Source of the DNA: Pseudomonas chlororaphis subsp. chlororaphis
GTDB lineage: Bacteria > Pseudomonadota > Gammaproteobacteria > Pseudomonadales > Pseudomonadaceae
NCBI RefSeq assembly: GCF_003945765.1
Contig: NZ_CP027712.1
Span: 1,736,001-1,800,000, forward strand
Length of the DNA stretch: 64,000 nucleotides
Direction: 5' to 3'
Below the pieces are notes generated by a model, which was given only the letters and a program-made list of their open reading frames with translations, was not told where the DNA came from and did no database searches. Each line of letters starts with the position of its first letter. Position 1 is the stretch's first letter. Of the stretch, positions 7,252 to 56,428 are shown one piece after another. Both the position numbers and the translations under genes were made by a program.

Positions 7252-8631
7252 TTAGATCGCGTTGGCCAGGGTTGCCGGGCGACGAGACAACAGGCTCACC
7301 ACCACGAAGCTGATCAGGCCGACAGCCAGGCTGTAGTAGATCGGGGTGTTGGCGTCCAGGCCGTCCTTGAACATGAACGCCAGCGCGGTGAGGAAACCCA
7401 GGCCCATGCTGGCGATGGCGCCGGCGGTGGTCGCGCGTTTCCAGAAGATCGCCCCGATCAGCGGGATCAGCATGCCGCCCACCAGCAGGTTATAGGCCAG
7501 GGTCAGGGCGCTGATCACGTCGTTGACCACCAGGGCGATGCCCAGGACCACGATGCCGGTCAGCAGGGTGAACAGGCGGTTGATCCCCAGGCTCGACTGC
7601 TTGCCGCCACGCAGCTTGGGCAACAGGTCTTCGGTCAGGGTGGTGGAGGCGGCCAGCAGGCCGGCGCTGGCGGTGGACATCATGGCGGCCAGGGCCGCGG
7701 CGATCACCAGGCCACGGATGCCGTCCGGCAGCGAAGCTTTGACGATGGCGGCGAAGGCGTTGTTGACGTTGTCCAGGTCCGGCAGCAAGACATGCGCGGC
7801 CATGCCGATCAGGGCACAGGCCAGACCGTAGAGGATGCAGTAGAGGCCGGCGACGGTGCCTGCGTATTGCGCGACTTTTTCGGTCTTGGCGGTGAACACC
7901 CGTTGCCAGATGTCCTGGCCGATCAGGATGCCGAAGAAGTAGATCATGAAGTAGGTGACGATGGTGTCCCAGCCGATGGTGGTGAAGCTGAAGCTGGACG
8001 CCGGCAGCTTGGCCACCAGCTCATCCCAGCCGCCGACGCGGTACAGGCAGATCGGCAGCAGGATGAACATCAGGCCGACGGTCTTGATCACGAACTGGAC
8101 GATGTCGGTCAGGGTCAGCGACCACATGCCGCCGATCGCCGAATAAATCACCACCACGCCGCCGCCCAGCAGCACCGAAATCCAGAACGGCAGGCCGAAT
8201 AGCACTTGCAGCACGGTGCCGATGGCGAGGATCGAGGTCACGCCGATCATCAGCGCGTAGGCCAGCATGATCACCGCGCTGGCCTGGCGGGCCATCGGGT
8301 TGTAGCGTTTTTCCAGGACCTGGGTAACGGTGAAGATCCGCAGCTTGAGCAGCGGTTTGGCCAGCAGCAGGTTGAGGGCGATGATGCCCAGGCCCAGCGC
8401 CGCGCACAGCCAGAAGCCGGAGATGCCGTGGACATAGCCCAGGCGCACGGTGCCGACGGTGGAGGCACCGCCCAGCACGGTGGCGGCCATGGTGCCCATG
8501 TACAGGGTCGGGCCCAGGTTGCGGCCGGCTACCAGGTAGTCCTCGTGGGTCTTGGCCTTGCGCATGCCGTAATAGCCGAGCACCAGCATGCCGGCGGCGT
8601 AGATGAGTACGACGAATAGATCTAAAGCCAT
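7252..8631 (-). CDS. Sodium:solute symporter (SSS family)
   Basis: A 459-residue inner-membrane protein with about 13 hydrophobic segments and SSS features (YYGMRKAKTHEDYLVAGRNLGP near the start, MMSTASAGLLAASTTLTEDLL in the middle). ATG 8631 (MALDLF) has GGAGA just upstream. It is the last transporter in the minus-strand gbu cluster, the position I recall for PA1418 in P. aeruginosa beside guanidinobutyrase. It is therefore a candidate importer of 4-guanidinobutyrate or a related compound, inferred from context only. A 140-base gap with a repeat separates it from the NCS1 gene upstream. Confidence 0.87.
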   Translation of the reverse strand: MALDLFVVLIYAAGMLVLGYYGMRKAKTHEDYLVAGRNLGPTLYMGTMAATVLGGASTVGTVRLGYVHGISGFWLCAALGLGIIALNLLLAKPLLKLRIFTVTQVLEKRYNPMARQASAVIMLAYALMIGVTSILAIGTVLQVLFGLPFWISVLLGGGVVVIYSAIGGMWSLTLTDIVQFVIKTVGLMFILLPICLYRVGGWDELVAKLPASSFSFTTIGWDTIVTYFMIYFFGILIGQDIWQRVFTAKTEKVAQYAGTVAGLYCILYGLACALIGMAAHVLLPDLDNVNNAFAAIVKASLPDGIRGLVIAAALAAMMSTASAGLLAASTTLTEDLLPKLRGGKQSSLGINRLFTLLTGIVVLGIALVVNDVISALTLAYNLLVGGMLIPLIGAIFWKRATTAGAIASMGLGFLTALAFMFKDGLDANTPIYYSLAVGLISFVVVSLLSRRPATLANAI

Positions 8632-8670
8632 GATGGCGTGTCTCCGATTGTCTTTCTTATAGTGGCTTGC

Positions 8671-8759
8671 TGTAGAAGCGAGGCTTGCCGCAATCAAGGC
8701 GACGCGGTCTGGCGGACCCGTCGTGTGAGGCGTGATTGCCGGCGAGCCTGCCGCTACAG
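8671..8759. repeat. Imperfect intergenic inverted repeat (REP-like)
   Basis: TGTAGAAGCGAGGCTTGCCG at 8671-8690 and GCGAGCCTGCCGCTACAG at 8742-8759 resemble the arms of other 'gcgaggcttgcc...ctacag' elements in this window but are more diverged. It lies between two codirectional transporter genes. Confidence 0.5.
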
Positions 8760-8771
8760 GTCATGCTTGAG

Positions 8772-10283
8772 TCAGGCGGCTTGGCGCATGACCGGTTTAC
8801 CGAGCGAATCCGTGCTCTTGCTGCGTGGATCGTTGGGGCCGTAGACCGCGGCCGGCTCCGGGAACAGGTTGAGCAGGGCCAGGTACACCAGCGAGGCCAG
8901 GCCCAGGGTCACCGGCAGGCTGATATCGATGCCGTCGGCCAGGTTGCCCAGCGGACCGACGAACTGCCCGGGCAGGTTGACGAAGCACAGGCCGACCAGC
9001 GCGCTGGGGATCCAGGCCCCCAGGCCACGCCAGTTCCAGCCGTGCTGGAACCAGTAGCGGCCACCTTGCTCGCCACGGGTGAAGACTTGCAGGTCGTCCG
9101 GGCAGTAGAAGCCGCGACGCACCAGCAGGCCGATCAGCATGATCACCATCCACGGGGTGGTGCAGGTGATGATCAGCACGGCGAAGGTCGACGCGCTCTG
9201 CACCAGGTTGGCGGCGAAGCGCCCGATGAAGATGAAGGCGATCGACAGCACGCCGATCAGCAAGGTCGCCTTGACCCGCGACAGCACCCGCGGGAACACG
9301 CTGGACATGTCCAGGCCGGTGCCATACAGCGAGGTGGTGCCGGTGGACATGCCGCCGATCACCGCGATCAGGCACACCGGCAGGAAGAACCAGCTCGGCG
9401 AGACTGCCAGCAGGCCGCCGACGTAGTTGTTGGCGGCGATGTAGTCGGGCGCCTTGATCGCCACGATGGTGGCGGTGGCCAGGCCGAACAGGAAGGGAAT
9501 CAGGGTGGCGATCTGGGCGGCGATCACTGCCAGCATGATCCGGCCTTTCGGCGTTTCGCGGGGGATGTAGCGCGACCAGTCGCCGAGGAACGCGCCGAAG
9601 GAAATCGGGTTGCTCATGGCCACCAGCGCGGCACCGATGAAGGCCGCCCAGAAACCCGCCTGGCCGAGGGCCAGGGTACCGGCGAACTGGCTGTCGAAGG
9701 CCGGCGCGAAGGCGAAGATCCCCAGCAGGAACAGCAGGCTCGCCGCCCAGACGGCAATGCGGTTGACCCACAGCATGAAGCGGAAGCCGTAGATGCACAC
9801 CGTCAGTACCAGGATCGCGAACAGGCCGTAGGCCAGGCCCAGGGTCAGGTCGGTTTCCGGCAGGTCGACCAGGCGCTTGGCGCCGCCCACCAGGGCGTCC
9901 CCCGAACTCCATACGGAGAGGGAGAAGAAGGCGATGGCGGTCAGCAACGACAGGAACGAGCCGACGATCCGCCCGTGCACGCCGAAGTGCGCACCGGAAG
10001 AGACGGCGTTGTTGGTGCCGTTGATCGGCCCGAACAGGCCCATCGGCGCGAGGATCAATGCCCCCAGGATCACGCCCAGCACGATCGCCCAGACACCCGC
10101 CTGGAAGGACAGGCCGAACAGCACCGGGAAACTGCCGAGCACGGCGGTGGCGAAGGTATTGGCGCCGCCGAAGATCAGGCGAAACAGGTCGCTGGGCCGG
10201 GCGTCGCGTTCATGGTCGGGGATCTGTTCGACCCCATTCGTTTCGATGCTGCTAAGGCTTTTTTCTTTGTTGTTGTTATTCAT
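8772..10283 (-). CDS. NCS1-family permease (cytosine/purine permease-like) in the gbu cluster
   Basis: A 503-residue permease with a hydrophilic N-terminus (MNNNNKEKSLSSIETNG) and about 12 membrane segments. FGGANTFATAVLGSFPVLFGLSF and MSNPISFGAFLGDWSRY resemble CodB-type NCS1 transporters. Its position between the NTF2-like gene (10338) and the SSS gene repeats the P. aeruginosa order PA1418-PA1421, so uptake of a guanidino compound or its product is plausible but not shown. It differs clearly from the other NCS1 protein at 1016-2464. The next gene upstream ends 55 bases before its start. Confidence 0.87.
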   Translation of the reverse strand: MNNNNKEKSLSSIETNGVEQIPDHERDARPSDLFRLIFGGANTFATAVLGSFPVLFGLSFQAGVWAIVLGVILGALILAPMGLFGPINGTNNAVSSGAHFGVHGRIVGSFLSLLTAIAFFSLSVWSSGDALVGGAKRLVDLPETDLTLGLAYGLFAILVLTVCIYGFRFMLWVNRIAVWAASLLFLLGIFAFAPAFDSQFAGTLALGQAGFWAAFIGAALVAMSNPISFGAFLGDWSRYIPRETPKGRIMLAVIAAQIATLIPFLFGLATATIVAIKAPDYIAANNYVGGLLAVSPSWFFLPVCLIAVIGGMSTGTTSLYGTGLDMSSVFPRVLSRVKATLLIGVLSIAFIFIGRFAANLVQSASTFAVLIITCTTPWMVIMLIGLLVRRGFYCPDDLQVFTRGEQGGRYWFQHGWNWRGLGAWIPSALVGLCFVNLPGQFVGPLGNLADGIDISLPVTLGLASLVYLALLNLFPEPAAVYGPNDPRSKSTDSLGKPVMRQAA

Positions 10284-52724: not shown

Positions 52725-52760
52725 GAAAAAACGCCAACCTCAGGGTTGGCGTTTTTTTTG
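52725..52760 (+). terminator. Bidirectional terminator between rluB and the M29-like gene
   Basis: The stem AACGCCAACC/GGTTGGCGTT is flanked by A6 on the left and T8 on the right, so it can act for rluB on the plus strand and for the convergent M29-like gene on the minus strand. Confidence 0.88.
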
Positions 52761-52798: not shown

Positions 52799-53758
52799 TC
52801 AGAACACGAACCTGCCATCGAACACCGGCTTGTCGTCCAGCGCCAGCACCCCGCTGGCAAAGATCAGGTCCAGGTGATGGCTGCCCTTGGCGCCACCGCC
52901 CAGCCCCAGGTGCAGGCCGCAATGGCGCTCCTCGAAACCCGAGTTGCGCGCGTAGAGGTCTTTCACCCCTTCGTTGGTGCCGATGCCCAGCTCTTCGATG
53001 CGCCGGTTGGACGGGTTGGCATCCAGGTATTTGTTGAAGTCCTCCGCCAGCCCCGGCACGTCGGTGGCGATGCGGCTGATGGTGGAGTTCTCGATCCACA
53101 ATTCCAGCGGTGATTGCAGCACGCCGTACTTGCGCGCGAAGGGAATGGTGCCGAGGAAGGTGCCGACGAATTTCACCCGGCCATTGATGGCCTCGCTGTG
53201 GCTGGCGATTTCTCCGGGCGCCAGGTCGTAGTTGCCCACGCCGTTGATGTTGGTCCACTTCTTGATGCTGTCCAGCGGCGCTTCGAAGTACGAGCCGTGG
53301 TCGTCGCGAAAGCTCAGGGTGGTGGCCTCGGACATATGCTGGATCAGGGTCGCGTTGAGCTCGGCGATGCGTTGCGGCTCGACGCTGAAGGTGTCGTAGA
53401 AGTAGTCGCCGTAGTCCTTGAACAGCAGCGACTTCTTCCAGTTCTCGGCCATCACGCCCTGCAGCGCCTGGATGAACTCGGGGCCTTGCGGGCGGGGCGG
53501 CGAGAGGGTGGAGGAGTCGTAGAAGAAGATATACAGATCGCAGTCGGCGATGGCCTGGGCCAGCGCCGAGGTGGGTTCGAGGTCGAGACGCAGGGCTGTG
53601 AAACTGAAGGGGTCACCGGCCTGCTCGATGATGGCGGCGCTGGTGGCGGCATATTCGGCGGTGTGGCCGATCAGGACCCTGGCGTTCTGGCGCTCGGCCA
53701 GGGCCGGGTGGTGTTCGAGGTAGTAAAGGAAATGCCGGATGGCAGCGGTGTTGTCCAT
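52799..53758 (-). CDS. M29-metallopeptidase-like protein (short form), downstream of a peptide gene
   Basis: A 319-residue protein that resembles the C-terminal two-thirds of M29 aminopeptidases (AmpS/PepS, usually about 410 residues). Candidate metal residues can be aligned: E183 (APGEIASHSEAINGRV), E255 or E256 (RRIEELGIGTNEGV), H283 (CGLHLGLGGG), and H295 with D297 (SHHLD). An intact site suggests a working metallopeptidase, but the N-terminal half (about 1-150) is not recognisable. It has a strong ribosome site (GGGAGGA) before ATG 53758. It follows a 45-codon peptide gene by 70 bases with a hairpin between, and shares the rluB terminator. Cytoplasmic, with no signal peptide. Processing of the adjacent peptide is a hypothesis. 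Confidence 0.72.
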   Translation of the reverse strand: MDNTAAIRHFLYYLEHHPALAERQNARVLIGHTAEYAATSAAIIEQAGDPFSFTALRLDLEPTSALAQAIADCDLYIFFYDSSTLSPPRPQGPEFIQALQGVMAENWKKSLLFKDYGDYFYDTFSVEPQRIAELNATLIQHMSEATTLSFRDDHGSYFEAPLDSIKKWTNINGVGNYDLAPGEIASHSEAINGRVKFVGTFLGTIPFARKYGVLQSPLELWIENSTISRIATDVPGLAEDFNKYLDANPSNRRIEELGIGTNEGVKDLYARNSGFEERHCGLHLGLGGGAKGSHHLDLIFASGVLALDDKPVFDGRFVF

Positions 53759-53786
53759 GGATCCTCCCTGACAGACAGCGGATGGA

Positions 53787-53816
53787 GGCAGGGGCGACCG
53801 CCGGGCCGCTCCTGCC
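53787..53816 (-). promoter_or_regulatory. Intercistronic hairpin between peptide gene and M29-like gene
   Basis: GGCAGGGGCG (53787-53796) and CGCTCCTGCC (53807-53816) form a ten-base-pair stem with one mismatch. On the minus strand no T-tract follows, so it may stabilise the upstream peptide message or attenuate the downstream gene. Confidence 0.5.
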
Positions 53817-53828
53817 TGAAGGCCCTTT

Positions 53829-53966
53829 TTACAAGGGCCACATCGCCGTGCCGAACGGTACTACCGCGTCGGCCTGCATCATTTCCACCGCGGCCTCGTG
53901 GGTCGCTGCTTCAAACCAATCGTCCAGTTGCAGTTCAGTGTCCAAGTCTTTTTCCAGTGCTTGCAT
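53829..53966 (-). CDS. 45-residue peptide, possible RiPP-like precursor or small protein
   Basis: A short ORF with a clear ribosome site (TAGGAG, 7 bases before ATG 53966) that opens a two-gene unit with the M29-like gene. The peptide has an acidic helical N-terminus (MQALEKDLDTELQLDDWFEA), a middle AATHEAAVEMMQADA and a hydrophobic, uncharged C-terminus AVVPFGTAMWPL. This split between an acidic leader and a non-polar end recalls ribosomal peptide precursors, but no modifying enzyme other than the peptidase-like gene is nearby. It could also be a subunit or leader peptide. The upstream region is AT-rich. I do not recognise the family. Confidence 0.6.
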   Translation of the reverse strand: MQALEKDLDTELQLDDWFEAATHEAAVEMMQADAVVPFGTAMWPL

Positions 53967-54072
53967 CGTGAATCTCCTAGATGACTTTTTCGGATAAAAG
54001 CAGTCGGTGAGACGGCTCGGGCGTTCTACGGGGAGTGCTTGAAAGCCCCAGCTGCTCAATGTGGCCGCTCGG

Positions 54073-54097
54073 CTTGCCGGGGGTGTGGTCCGGCAAG
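54073..54097 (-). promoter_or_regulatory. 5' leader hairpin of the peptide gene
   Basis: CTTGCCGG (54073-54080) pairs perfectly with CCGGCAAG (54090-54097). It would lie near the 5' end of a message starting from the promoter at 54106-54134. Confidence 0.45.
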
Positions 54098-54105
54098 TGG
54101 CTGGA

Positions 54106-54134
54106 AACCTAGTCCAGGGTTTTTTGAAATGCAA
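54106..54134 (-). promoter_or_regulatory. Candidate sigma-70 promoter of the peptide/M29-like unit
   Basis: On the minus strand TTGCAT and TAGGTT are separated by 17 bases, within a strongly AT-rich stretch (54120-54240). Transcription would start near 54098, about 130 bases before the peptide start codon. Confidence 0.4.
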
Positions 54135-54299
54135 AAAAATAATTGAATTATTTTTATTGAACTTTTTGTTCTGTTTTTGCGCTGGAAAATTATCAAGAAA
54201 AAACAAAAAGCTGAGCGAGCAGACAGATAAAAAAGCGCTGGCCGTCAATTTGCAGTCGCCGATGTCACTGATCTGAAGTGGAAAAAATACGTTCCGCCT

Positions 54300-54884: not shown

Positions 54885-54947
54885 ATGACCGTTAAACAAA
54901 CGCTGAACTCCTGGTGCCTGCGCTGGGGTTTGATCCGCGCTGCTTAA
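54885..54947 (+). CDS. 20-residue leader peptide with two Trp codons upstream of aroP
   Basis: ATG 54885 follows AGGTGA and encodes MTVKQTLNSWCLRWGLIRAA, with Trp codons at 54912 and 54924, then TAA. It ends 59 bases before the aromatic amino-acid permease start. Two Trp in 20 residues just upstream of an AroP gene is what a tryptophan-sensing leader would show. No classical terminator is visible between; only a small AGCC/GGCT hairpin follows the stop. Function is inferred. Confidence 0.5.
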   Translation: MTVKQTLNSWCLRWGLIRAA

Positions 54948-55006: not shown

Positions 55007-56428
55007 ATGAGTGGACAAAACTCGCATTCAGGCGAGCTGAAGCGCGGCCTGAAAAATCGCCATATTCAACTGATCGCCCTGGGCGGCGCGATCGGTACCG
55101 GACTGTTCCTGGGCTCCGCCGGCGTGCTCAAGTCGGCCGGGCCGTCGATGATCCTCGGCTACGCCATCTGCGGCTTCATCGCCTTCATGATCATGCGCCA
55201 GCTCGGCGAGATGATCGTCGAAGAGCCGGTGGCCGGTTCCTTCAGCCATTTCGCGCACAAGTACTGGGGCGGTTTCGCCGGTTTCCTGTCGGGCTGGAAC
55301 TGCTGGATTCTGTACATCCTGGTGGGTATGTCGGAGCTGACCGCGGTCGGCAAGTACGTGCACTACTGGTGGCCGGACGTGCCGACCTGGGCCTCGGCCG
55401 CGGCGTTCTTCGTGCTGATCAACCTGATCAACCTGGCCAACGTCAAAGTCTTCGGTGAAGCCGAGTTCTGGTTCGCGATCATCAAGGTGGTGGCCATCGT
55501 CGGCATGATTGCCCTGGGCAGCTACCTACTGGTCAGCGGTCACGGCGGCCCACAGGCTTCGGTGAGCAACCTGTGGGAGCACGGCGGGTTCTTCCCCAAT
55601 GGCGTCAGCGGCCTGGTGATGGCCATGGCGATCATCATGTTCTCCTTCGGTGGCCTGGAGATGCTCGGGTTTACCGCGGCCGAGGCCGACAAGCCGAAGA
55701 CCGTAATTCCCAAGGCCATCAACCAGGTGATCTACCGCATCCTGATTTTCTACATCGGTGCCCTGGTCGTGCTGTTGTCCCTGACCCCATGGAACAGTCT
55801 GCTGGAAACCCTGAATGCCTCCGGCGATGCCTACAGCGGCAGCCCGTTCGTCCAGGTGTTCTCGATGCTGGGCAGCGATACCGCGGCGCACATCCTCAAC
55901 TTCGTGGTCCTGACCGCGGCCTTGTCGGTGTACAACAGCGGCACCTACTGCAACAGTCGCATGCTGCTGGGCATGGCCGAGCAGGGCGACGCACCGAAAG
56001 TCCTGGCGAAGATCGACAAGCGCGGCGTGCCGGTGATGTCGATCCTGGCCTCGGCGGTGGTGACCTTCGTTGCCGTGGTGCTCAACTACCTGATCCCGCA
56101 GCACGCCCTGGAGCTGCTGATGTCGCTGGTGGTCGCGACCCTGGTGATCAACTGGGCGATGATCAGCTACTCGCACTTCAAGTTCCGCCAGCACATGAAC
56201 CGCACGAAACAATCGCCGCTGTTCAAGGCGCTGTGGTACCCCTACGGCAACTACGTCTGCCTGGCGTTCGTGGTGTTCATCCTTGGCATCATGCTGATGA
56301 TCCCGGGCATCCAGATCTCGGTGTACGCGATTCCGGTGTGGGTCGCCTTCATGTGGGTCTGCTACGGCATCAAGAACAAGCGCAGCGCGCAGCACGCGCT
56401 GCAGGTCGCCAGTTCTTCGGCGAAGTAA
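55007..56428 (+). CDS. aroP: Aromatic amino-acid permease
   Basis: A 473-residue APC-family inner-membrane symporter with 12 helices. [85 protein letters not shown] and [17 protein letters not shown] closely match E. coli AroP/PheP, so it should import Phe, Tyr and Trp. ATG 55007 starts the conserved part; longer frames run into the leader. A long leader with a PhhR-type box and two short ORFs lies upstream, suggesting control by aromatic amino acids together with phhABC. A terminator follows at 56447-56473. Confidence 0.9.

Follow-up and report, generated by a model that had tools for sequence, protein, structure and literature searches.

Crocagin biosynthesis employs two short proteins, CgnB and CgnE, that resemble M29 metallopeptidases and bind the precursor peptide. 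According to the published account, CgnB lacks the dimer-forming part of M29 enzymes and holds its metals through Glu161, Glu252, Glu274, His280, His291 and Asp293, and its authors saw no aminopeptidase activity with either protein (PMC10070186). The same paper describes single-copy CgnB/E homologues of several classes, with a metal site that is always intact and with precursors mined beside them. Here we describe a two-gene unit in a 64,000-nucleotide (nt) stretch of the Pseudomonas chlororaphis subsp. chlororaphis genome (NZ_CP027712.1, positions 1,736,001 to 1,800,000; hereafter the window), in which a gene for a 45-residue peptide precedes a gene for a 319-residue CgnB/M29-like protein, referred to below as the enzyme.

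The original prediction, made from this DNA alone, knew of no described system of this make-up. That view is not supported, as CgnB and CgnE have been described together with the single-copy homologues and their mined precursors. Among the matches listed in our literature search, as judged by titles and the first lines of abstracts, only PMC10070186 describes relatives with a partner peptide. No paper was found that combines M29 with precursor peptides, ribosomally synthesized and post-translationally modified peptides (RiPPs), Pseudomonas and Burkholderia, or NicX with M29. We think it likely that the two genes form a minimal RiPP-like unit, comprising a precursor and a CgnB-type protein that would bind its leader and act on its tail via metals.

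The peptide is a gene under strong purifying selection

The peptide open reading frame (ORF) lies at 53829..53966 on the minus strand of the window, and a ribosome site, TAGGAG, was read directly ahead of its ATG (53974..53979, minus strand) and is similar in relatives. It encodes MQALEKDLDTELQLDDWFEAATHEAAVEMMQADAVVPFGTAMWPL, in which the N-terminal part is acidic, with a counted net charge of about -9, and the C-terminal block is ADAVVPFGTAMWPL. The frame is open in all 93 loci with a full enzyme gene while 33% of synonymous sites differ on average, which is more than chance would allow. Among the 83 distinct peptide DNA sequences from these 93 loci (mean synonymous difference 0.33), the ratio of nonsynonymous to synonymous change (dN/dS) was 0.10 overall. 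By codon it was 0.40 for positions 2–10, 0.095 for 11–21, 0.027 for 22–32 and 0.033 for 33–45; in four of the 93 peptides, which are shorter by one residue, the first residues are counted in a shifted register. Residues 36–44 (VPFGTAMWP) are identical at every one of the 93 loci. The peptide is a real gene under strong purifying selection, the property on which the original prediction had staked this ORF.

Between lineages the peptide ranges from 37 to 45 residues, with a tail that is nearly unchanging. Twelve aligned peptides keep M1, L14, W17, M30, A34, P37, T40, A41 and W43, and a further one from genome G1483, outside this alignment, keeps the same nine residues on reading. The residues after the invariant Trp vary (Pro followed by Leu, Met, Phe, Val or Ile; Pro alone; Ala-Val or Ala), and tails outside Pseudomonas resemble AVVPFGTAMWPL. 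A conserved, selected peptide with a putative leader and core is what a RiPP precursor would look like, and the leader and core layout first proposed fits the pattern of conservation; we infer the border between the two. Pfam and NCBIfam searches returned no family for the peptide. No paper was found that contains VPFGTA, FGTAMWP or FGTALWP, although the supplementary precursor tables of PMC10070186 may list the family.

Peptide and enzyme genes are kept and lost together

We searched 298 Pseudomonas genomes for the peptide and, with a profile, for the enzyme. The peptide search matched 105 genomes and the enzyme profile 108, and a comparison of the lists placed all 105 peptide-positive genomes among the enzyme-positive ones. 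The three additional genomes (G034, G199 and G271) carry enzyme scraps at the RluB site with no peptide match, and these loci (L154, L155 and L156) represent joint loss of the pair. In one of the 105, G237, there is a frame change near the enzyme C-terminus and the peptide is intact. At the level of loci, 93 of 94 with enzyme sequence have the peptide 58–93 nt upstream (70 nt in the window), the exception, L014, being an enzyme scrap only. The check proposed earlier, whether the peptide ORF always stands ahead of the M29-like gene, thus gave both genes in the same 105 genomes, with enzyme-only cases that are scraps, and the M29-like gene was not common without the peptide anywhere in the 298. 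Of 80 named Pseudomonas loci, 75 have an RluB-like gene close to the pair, and the stretch available for the remaining five contained no match; within Pseudomonas, the unit has therefore mostly been inherited in place.

The pair also occurs in other genera. The genus of genome G633, taken as Burkholderia because three Burkholderia records carry nearly the same pair, gave enzyme profile matches in 51 of 65 genomes: 49 with type 1, five with type 2 (four genomes have both) and one with a fragment only. We read 27 type-1 loci, from 24 of the 49 genomes and three named records; at every one of them the peptide is present, with the ending AVVPFGTALW(P/A)V. It was likewise present at all five type-2 loci, where it ends AVIPFATALWA. 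In family f33, called enterobacteria-like by inference only, the enzyme matched in 4 of 198 genomes and the peptide was found in three of these four. It lies upstream of the enzyme in G1059 and G990, as at all other loci where it was found, with the exception of G941, in which it starts 275 nt after the enzyme stop codon on the same strand. The contig of the fourth genome, G606, ends at the enzyme end, with no peptide upstream and none elsewhere in that genome below E 1.

When run by itself against 360 genomes of the class, the peptide profile returned the own genome, one spurious match and one new case, G1483 of family f243, where the enzyme gene lies downstream of the peptide and its product is up to 55% identical to Pseudomonas enzymes (peptide in 1/1 for this family). 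The spurious match, in G1362 (E 0.009), lies inside a 626-residue frame and was dropped. When 398 genomes of the phylum and 250 of the order of G633 were searched, the close cases beyond Pseudomonas were G606 and G633, and this peptide was not seen beside those of the more distant relatives that were examined. Burkholderia type 2 and the G990 locus (L214) group together in the tree of enzymes with 100/100 support, subject to a long-branch warning. Both carry the AVIPFATALWA tail, so that tail type travels with enzyme type, a match that stands without the tree.

Three distant relatives of the enzyme (L152:8350-9471, minus strand; L153:7501-8631, plus; L173:6954-8159, plus) are 20-25% identical to it and have a C-terminal extension carrying a CCG motif. 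The one at L152 lies near genes for a cupin, a DmpG-like aldolase and an acetaldehyde dehydrogenase. No clear peptide of this family was found beside the enzyme relatives at these three loci.

The enzyme has a predicted CgnB-like fold and metal site

The enzyme gene (52799..53758, minus strand) encodes 319 residues, compared with 317 in CgnB and 397-413 in the M29 chains matched by Foldseek. It is 78-94 residues shorter than the latter, in line with the figure of about 90 originally given. Direct alignment places E256, E277, H283, H295 and D297 on five of the six CgnB metal ligands; the likely sixth ligand, E183, was placed by the GE(I/V)A motif and not by direct alignment. At each of these six positions, 153 or 154 of 154 distinct sequences agree; the only departure is a gap that affects H295 and D297. 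NicX, a 2,5-dihydroxypyridine dioxygenase, holds a mononuclear Fe(II) through H265, S302, H318 and D320 (PMC7910607); the position of H265 is an invariant Glu (E256) here, and that of S302 is not aligned residue by residue. Since this Glu and the dinuclear ligands are kept, the metal site appears to be of the CgnB/M29 kind, with its dinuclear ligand set intact.

The best profile match in the PDB was CgnB (6zsv), which was weak (E 0.017) and collinear over the metal motif. Foldseek comparison used a predicted model of moderate quality, with a predicted local distance difference test (pLDDT) score of 68.2 and a predicted template modelling (pTM) score of 0.55; an earlier AlphaFold model was poor (pLDDT 55.7) and was excluded from fold searches. 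All 12 matches at E <= 1e-3 were NicX, M29 aminopeptidases, CgnB or CgnE, so that structure comparison assigns the model the M29-like fold of the CgnB/CgnE family. The best match over the whole length was NicX (7cup, 7cn3), a protein of similar length. To our knowledge, NicX has no partner peptide. With the M29 aminopeptidases AmpT, AmpS and PepS (2ayi, 1zjc, 4icq/4icr/4ics) the enzyme shares the predicted fold of the catalytic part and the type of ligand set; those proteins are longer by the margin given above.

The Pfam M29 model, PF02073, did not match the enzyme, while it matched a control, L181, at 3e-12. The only Pfam row for the enzyme was below threshold (WbqC, E 0.2), NCBIfam gave none, and a pattern scan of viral contigs confirmed no relative. 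The enzyme gene is single copy in its own genome. Structure prediction and inspection of the metal site had been suggested at the outset, and the M29-like character then proposed is supported in its predicted fold and its ligands; peptidase activity, by contrast, is not, given the missing Pfam match and the lack of aminopeptidase activity reported for CgnB and CgnE (PMC10070186).

A covarying hairpin separates the two genes

A hairpin lies in the gap between the peptide and enzyme genes (53786..53817, minus strand). In an alignment of 28 gaps chosen from 82 distinct ones, changes on both sides were found at 11 of 12 pairs. Pairing held in 93.8% of cells versus 75.9% in shuffles, none of 500 shuffles was as high, and slid partners gave 27-54%. 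The folding energy of the window gap alone was not significant (z -1.44, with 20 of 200 shuffles equally good). A stem also folds, with modest z values of -1.6 to -2.2, in four gaps from other genera (L177, L213, L214 and L215). Judged by its covariation, the RNA hairpin is maintained in evolution. The ribosome site of the enzyme gene, GGGAGG, read directly ahead of its ATG (53763..53768, minus strand), lies outside the covarying stem, and in the window no U-run follows the stem; dosage control or protection of a 3’ end would therefore fit better than sequestration. An Rfam scan returned three rows only, all far below gathering scores.

Upstream of the peptide gene, a promoter-like block, TTTTTTTGCA...CTAGGTT (54106..54139, minus strand), is conserved across 22 aligned upstream stretches and contains the candidate promoter TTGCAT-17-TAGGTT (54134-54106, minus strand). 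A consensus promoter scanner listed no minus-strand site, and the promoter first proposed is thus plausible but unproven. Downstream of the enzyme gene, a terminator stem at about 52726..52759 (folding z -6.27 versus shuffles) is common to the pair and to the convergent RluB-like gene. The two ORFs with their ribosome sites, the stem between them and the shared terminator had all been read from the window beforehand, and each stood up to this analysis.

Just downstream of the promoter-like block, a possible stem in the 5’ untranslated region, CTTGCCGG...CCGGCAAG (54073-54097, minus strand), is seen in many loci and absent or altered in others. We do not claim it as a feature of the unit.

Neighboring genes and a possible third component

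The neighbors of the pair in the window encode a pseudouridine synthase, ScpB, an amino acid permease, an RF-1-like protein and an MFS protein, none of them in the same apparent transcript. Near the B. arboris pair (L177) are an MFS gene, a GNAT gene and an AraC-type regulator, and near that of B. stagnalis (L179) another GNAT gene and an aldehyde dehydrogenase. Apart from GNAT genes of different kinds, no neighbor was seen to be common to several genera. Among the 18 non-Pseudomonas loci searched, nine (L172, L177, L178, L179, L212, L214, L221, L222 and L223) had a GNAT gene within the DNA retrieved, in differing orientations and from at least three sequence groups. GNAT genes are common, so this proximity may be chance, and we did not count them as part of the unit.

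At the type-2 loci examined (L214, L215 and L218, of six), a TPR-repeat gene follows the enzyme gene (L214:7499-9872; L215:7455-8918; L218 about 7540-8963; all plus strand). At L214, the locus of genome G990, the TPR gene is followed by a weak match to a 2-oxoglutarate-Fe(II) oxygenase (24.2 bits, versus a cut-off of 27). Among the genomes chosen, homologues of this oxygenase-like gene were present in 9 of 14 with the pair and in 1 of 6 without it (one-sided Fisher 0.07). The gene is not obligatory, because it is missing in five pair-positive genomes (G010, G020, G633, G941 and G1140); it may still be weakly linked to the pair, and an oxygenase encoded elsewhere may help.

A 20-residue ORF, MTVKQTLNSWCLRWGLIRAA, lies at 54885-54947 of the window on the plus strand, 59 nt ahead of the amino acid permease gene (ATG at 55007; PF00324). 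Close variants, such as MTVVNKLNSWCLRWGLIGAA, occur within 300 nt before the permease in 63 of 77 Pseudomonas loci that have it. With its two Trp codons, this ORF looks like an attenuation leader peptide.

Discussion

Of the described relatives that have a peptide partner, CgnB and CgnE come nearest, with a weak profile match, a clear fold match and kept ligands. The enzyme resembles CgnB (6zsv) and CgnE (6zsu) in its predicted M29-like fold, its length of about 317 residues and its lack of a Pfam family, and CgnB in its dinuclear ligand set; as in crocagin biosynthesis, its gene stands beside that of a short precursor with a conserved, Trp-bearing end. Unlike that system, its own genome holds no second CgnB/E copy, and neither a CgnC-type oxygenase nor another cluster gene is linked in the same apparent transcript. 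The core differs too, and with the linked oxygenase also missing, this is not the crocagin pathway. The unit looks instead like a stripped-down CgnB relative with its own precursor family.

We propose, with fair confidence, the following reading of the locus. The small gene would encode a precursor whose leader (L-x-x-W ... V-x-M-M) is acidic and probably helical and whose core, at the C-terminus, is the short stretch A-V-V-P-F-G-T-A-M-W, with one or two residues after it. The CgnB-type protein, with its M29-like fold and two-metal ligand set, would dock the leader, and its metals would act on the part of the tail that surrounds the invariant Thr-Ala-(Met/Leu)-Trp, near Trp43. The hairpin after the precursor gene probably stabilizes or partly ends the transcript, such that precursor would exceed enzyme. 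Leader docking and metal action near Trp43 are most likely because tail and metal site are near-invariant, tail type and enzyme type are linked, and the relatives bind precursors. The two genes were first suggested to work together; they do go together across genomes, and we infer joint function, leader binding, the reaction itself, and the release and role of a product.

Several observations weigh against this proposal. None of our analyses shows a modification of the peptide. Neither a single-sequence query nor a shallow profile matched CgnB, the profile match that was obtained is weak, and the model is of moderate quality. Neither in the window nor at the two Burkholderia type-1 loci whose ORFs were listed does the apparent transcript of the pair include a protease, oxygenase or methyltransferase gene. 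According to PMC10070186, CgnB gave no product without the oxygenase CgnC, and three proteins together were needed for good turnover. The leader is acidic here and basic in CgnA, and the core is AVVPFGTAMWP(L), with no Tyr in the 12 aligned peptides, as opposed to Ile-Tyr-Trp in crocagin (PMC10070186). Finally, much of this pattern would also arise if the peptide served as a subunit or an inhibitor.

This last point leads to the alternative that deserves most attention, namely that the peptide is an unmodified small-protein partner, such as a subunit, an inhibitor or a metal-loading aid, whose tail sits in the active site of an enzyme that acts on some other substrate. Strict pairing and joint decay fit a complex as well as they fit a precursor, a protease for release is not linked, and NicX, one of the fold relatives, has a small molecule as its substrate. 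However, the nearest relatives with a partner peptide bind precursors (PMC10070186), and the presence of a covarying hairpin behind the peptide gene hints that the two products are made in unequal amounts and not for a 1:1 complex; we regard a partner role as unlikely. We rate as considerably less probable a regulatory leader peptide that controls the enzyme gene via the hairpin by ribosome arrest or attenuation, in the manner of TnaC. Such a peptide would explain the Trp-Pro-x-stop ending in Pseudomonas, the hairpin soon after its stop codon, and the conservation of residues 11-45, most of which would sit in the ribosome tunnel. Yet the peptide of G941 follows the enzyme gene and so cannot be its 5’ leader, the position of the ribosome site and the missing U-run speak against such control, and L14 and W17, in the N-terminal half, are also kept between genera.

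The two remaining alternatives concern the enzyme. Its predicted aminopeptidase fold and dinuclear ligands would suit a true aminopeptidase, or another peptidase, that trims or degrades the peptide and in so doing makes or destroys a signal. The Pfam M29 model fails to match, however, the protein is short in the way that CgnB is, which lacks the dimer-forming part, and CgnB and CgnE, which have the same layout, showed no aminopeptidase activity (PMC10070186), and we give this possibility a chance as slim as that of the leader peptide, or slightly slimmer. We find it scarcely credible that the enzyme cleaves rings in small-molecule catabolism as a dioxygenase like NicX, with an incidental peptide beside it, despite NicX being the best whole-length fold match. 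The NicX H265 position is an invariant Glu, the dinuclear set is kept in its place (cf. PMC7910607), and a peptide that co-occurs with the enzyme in Pseudomonas and that led by itself to the G1483 pair is not incidental.

The precursor and CgnB-type protein reading has a bolder extension, to which we give somewhat less than an even chance. A single CgnB-type metalloprotein, with no oxygenase, may alter a ribosomal peptide in a new way beside its invariant Trp, by cleavage, cyclization or some other reaction of the backbone. The outcome would be a small product that carries Trp and is common across the P. fluorescens group and Burkholderia, made by a two-gene cassette that moves between orders. 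Because nature here pairs a single precursor with a single such protein, what CgnB-type proteins do by themselves could be tested with two purified components. The analysis also names a precursor family common to many soil and plant-associated strains, and the unit offers a simple setting for learning what a CgnB-like protein does to a peptide.
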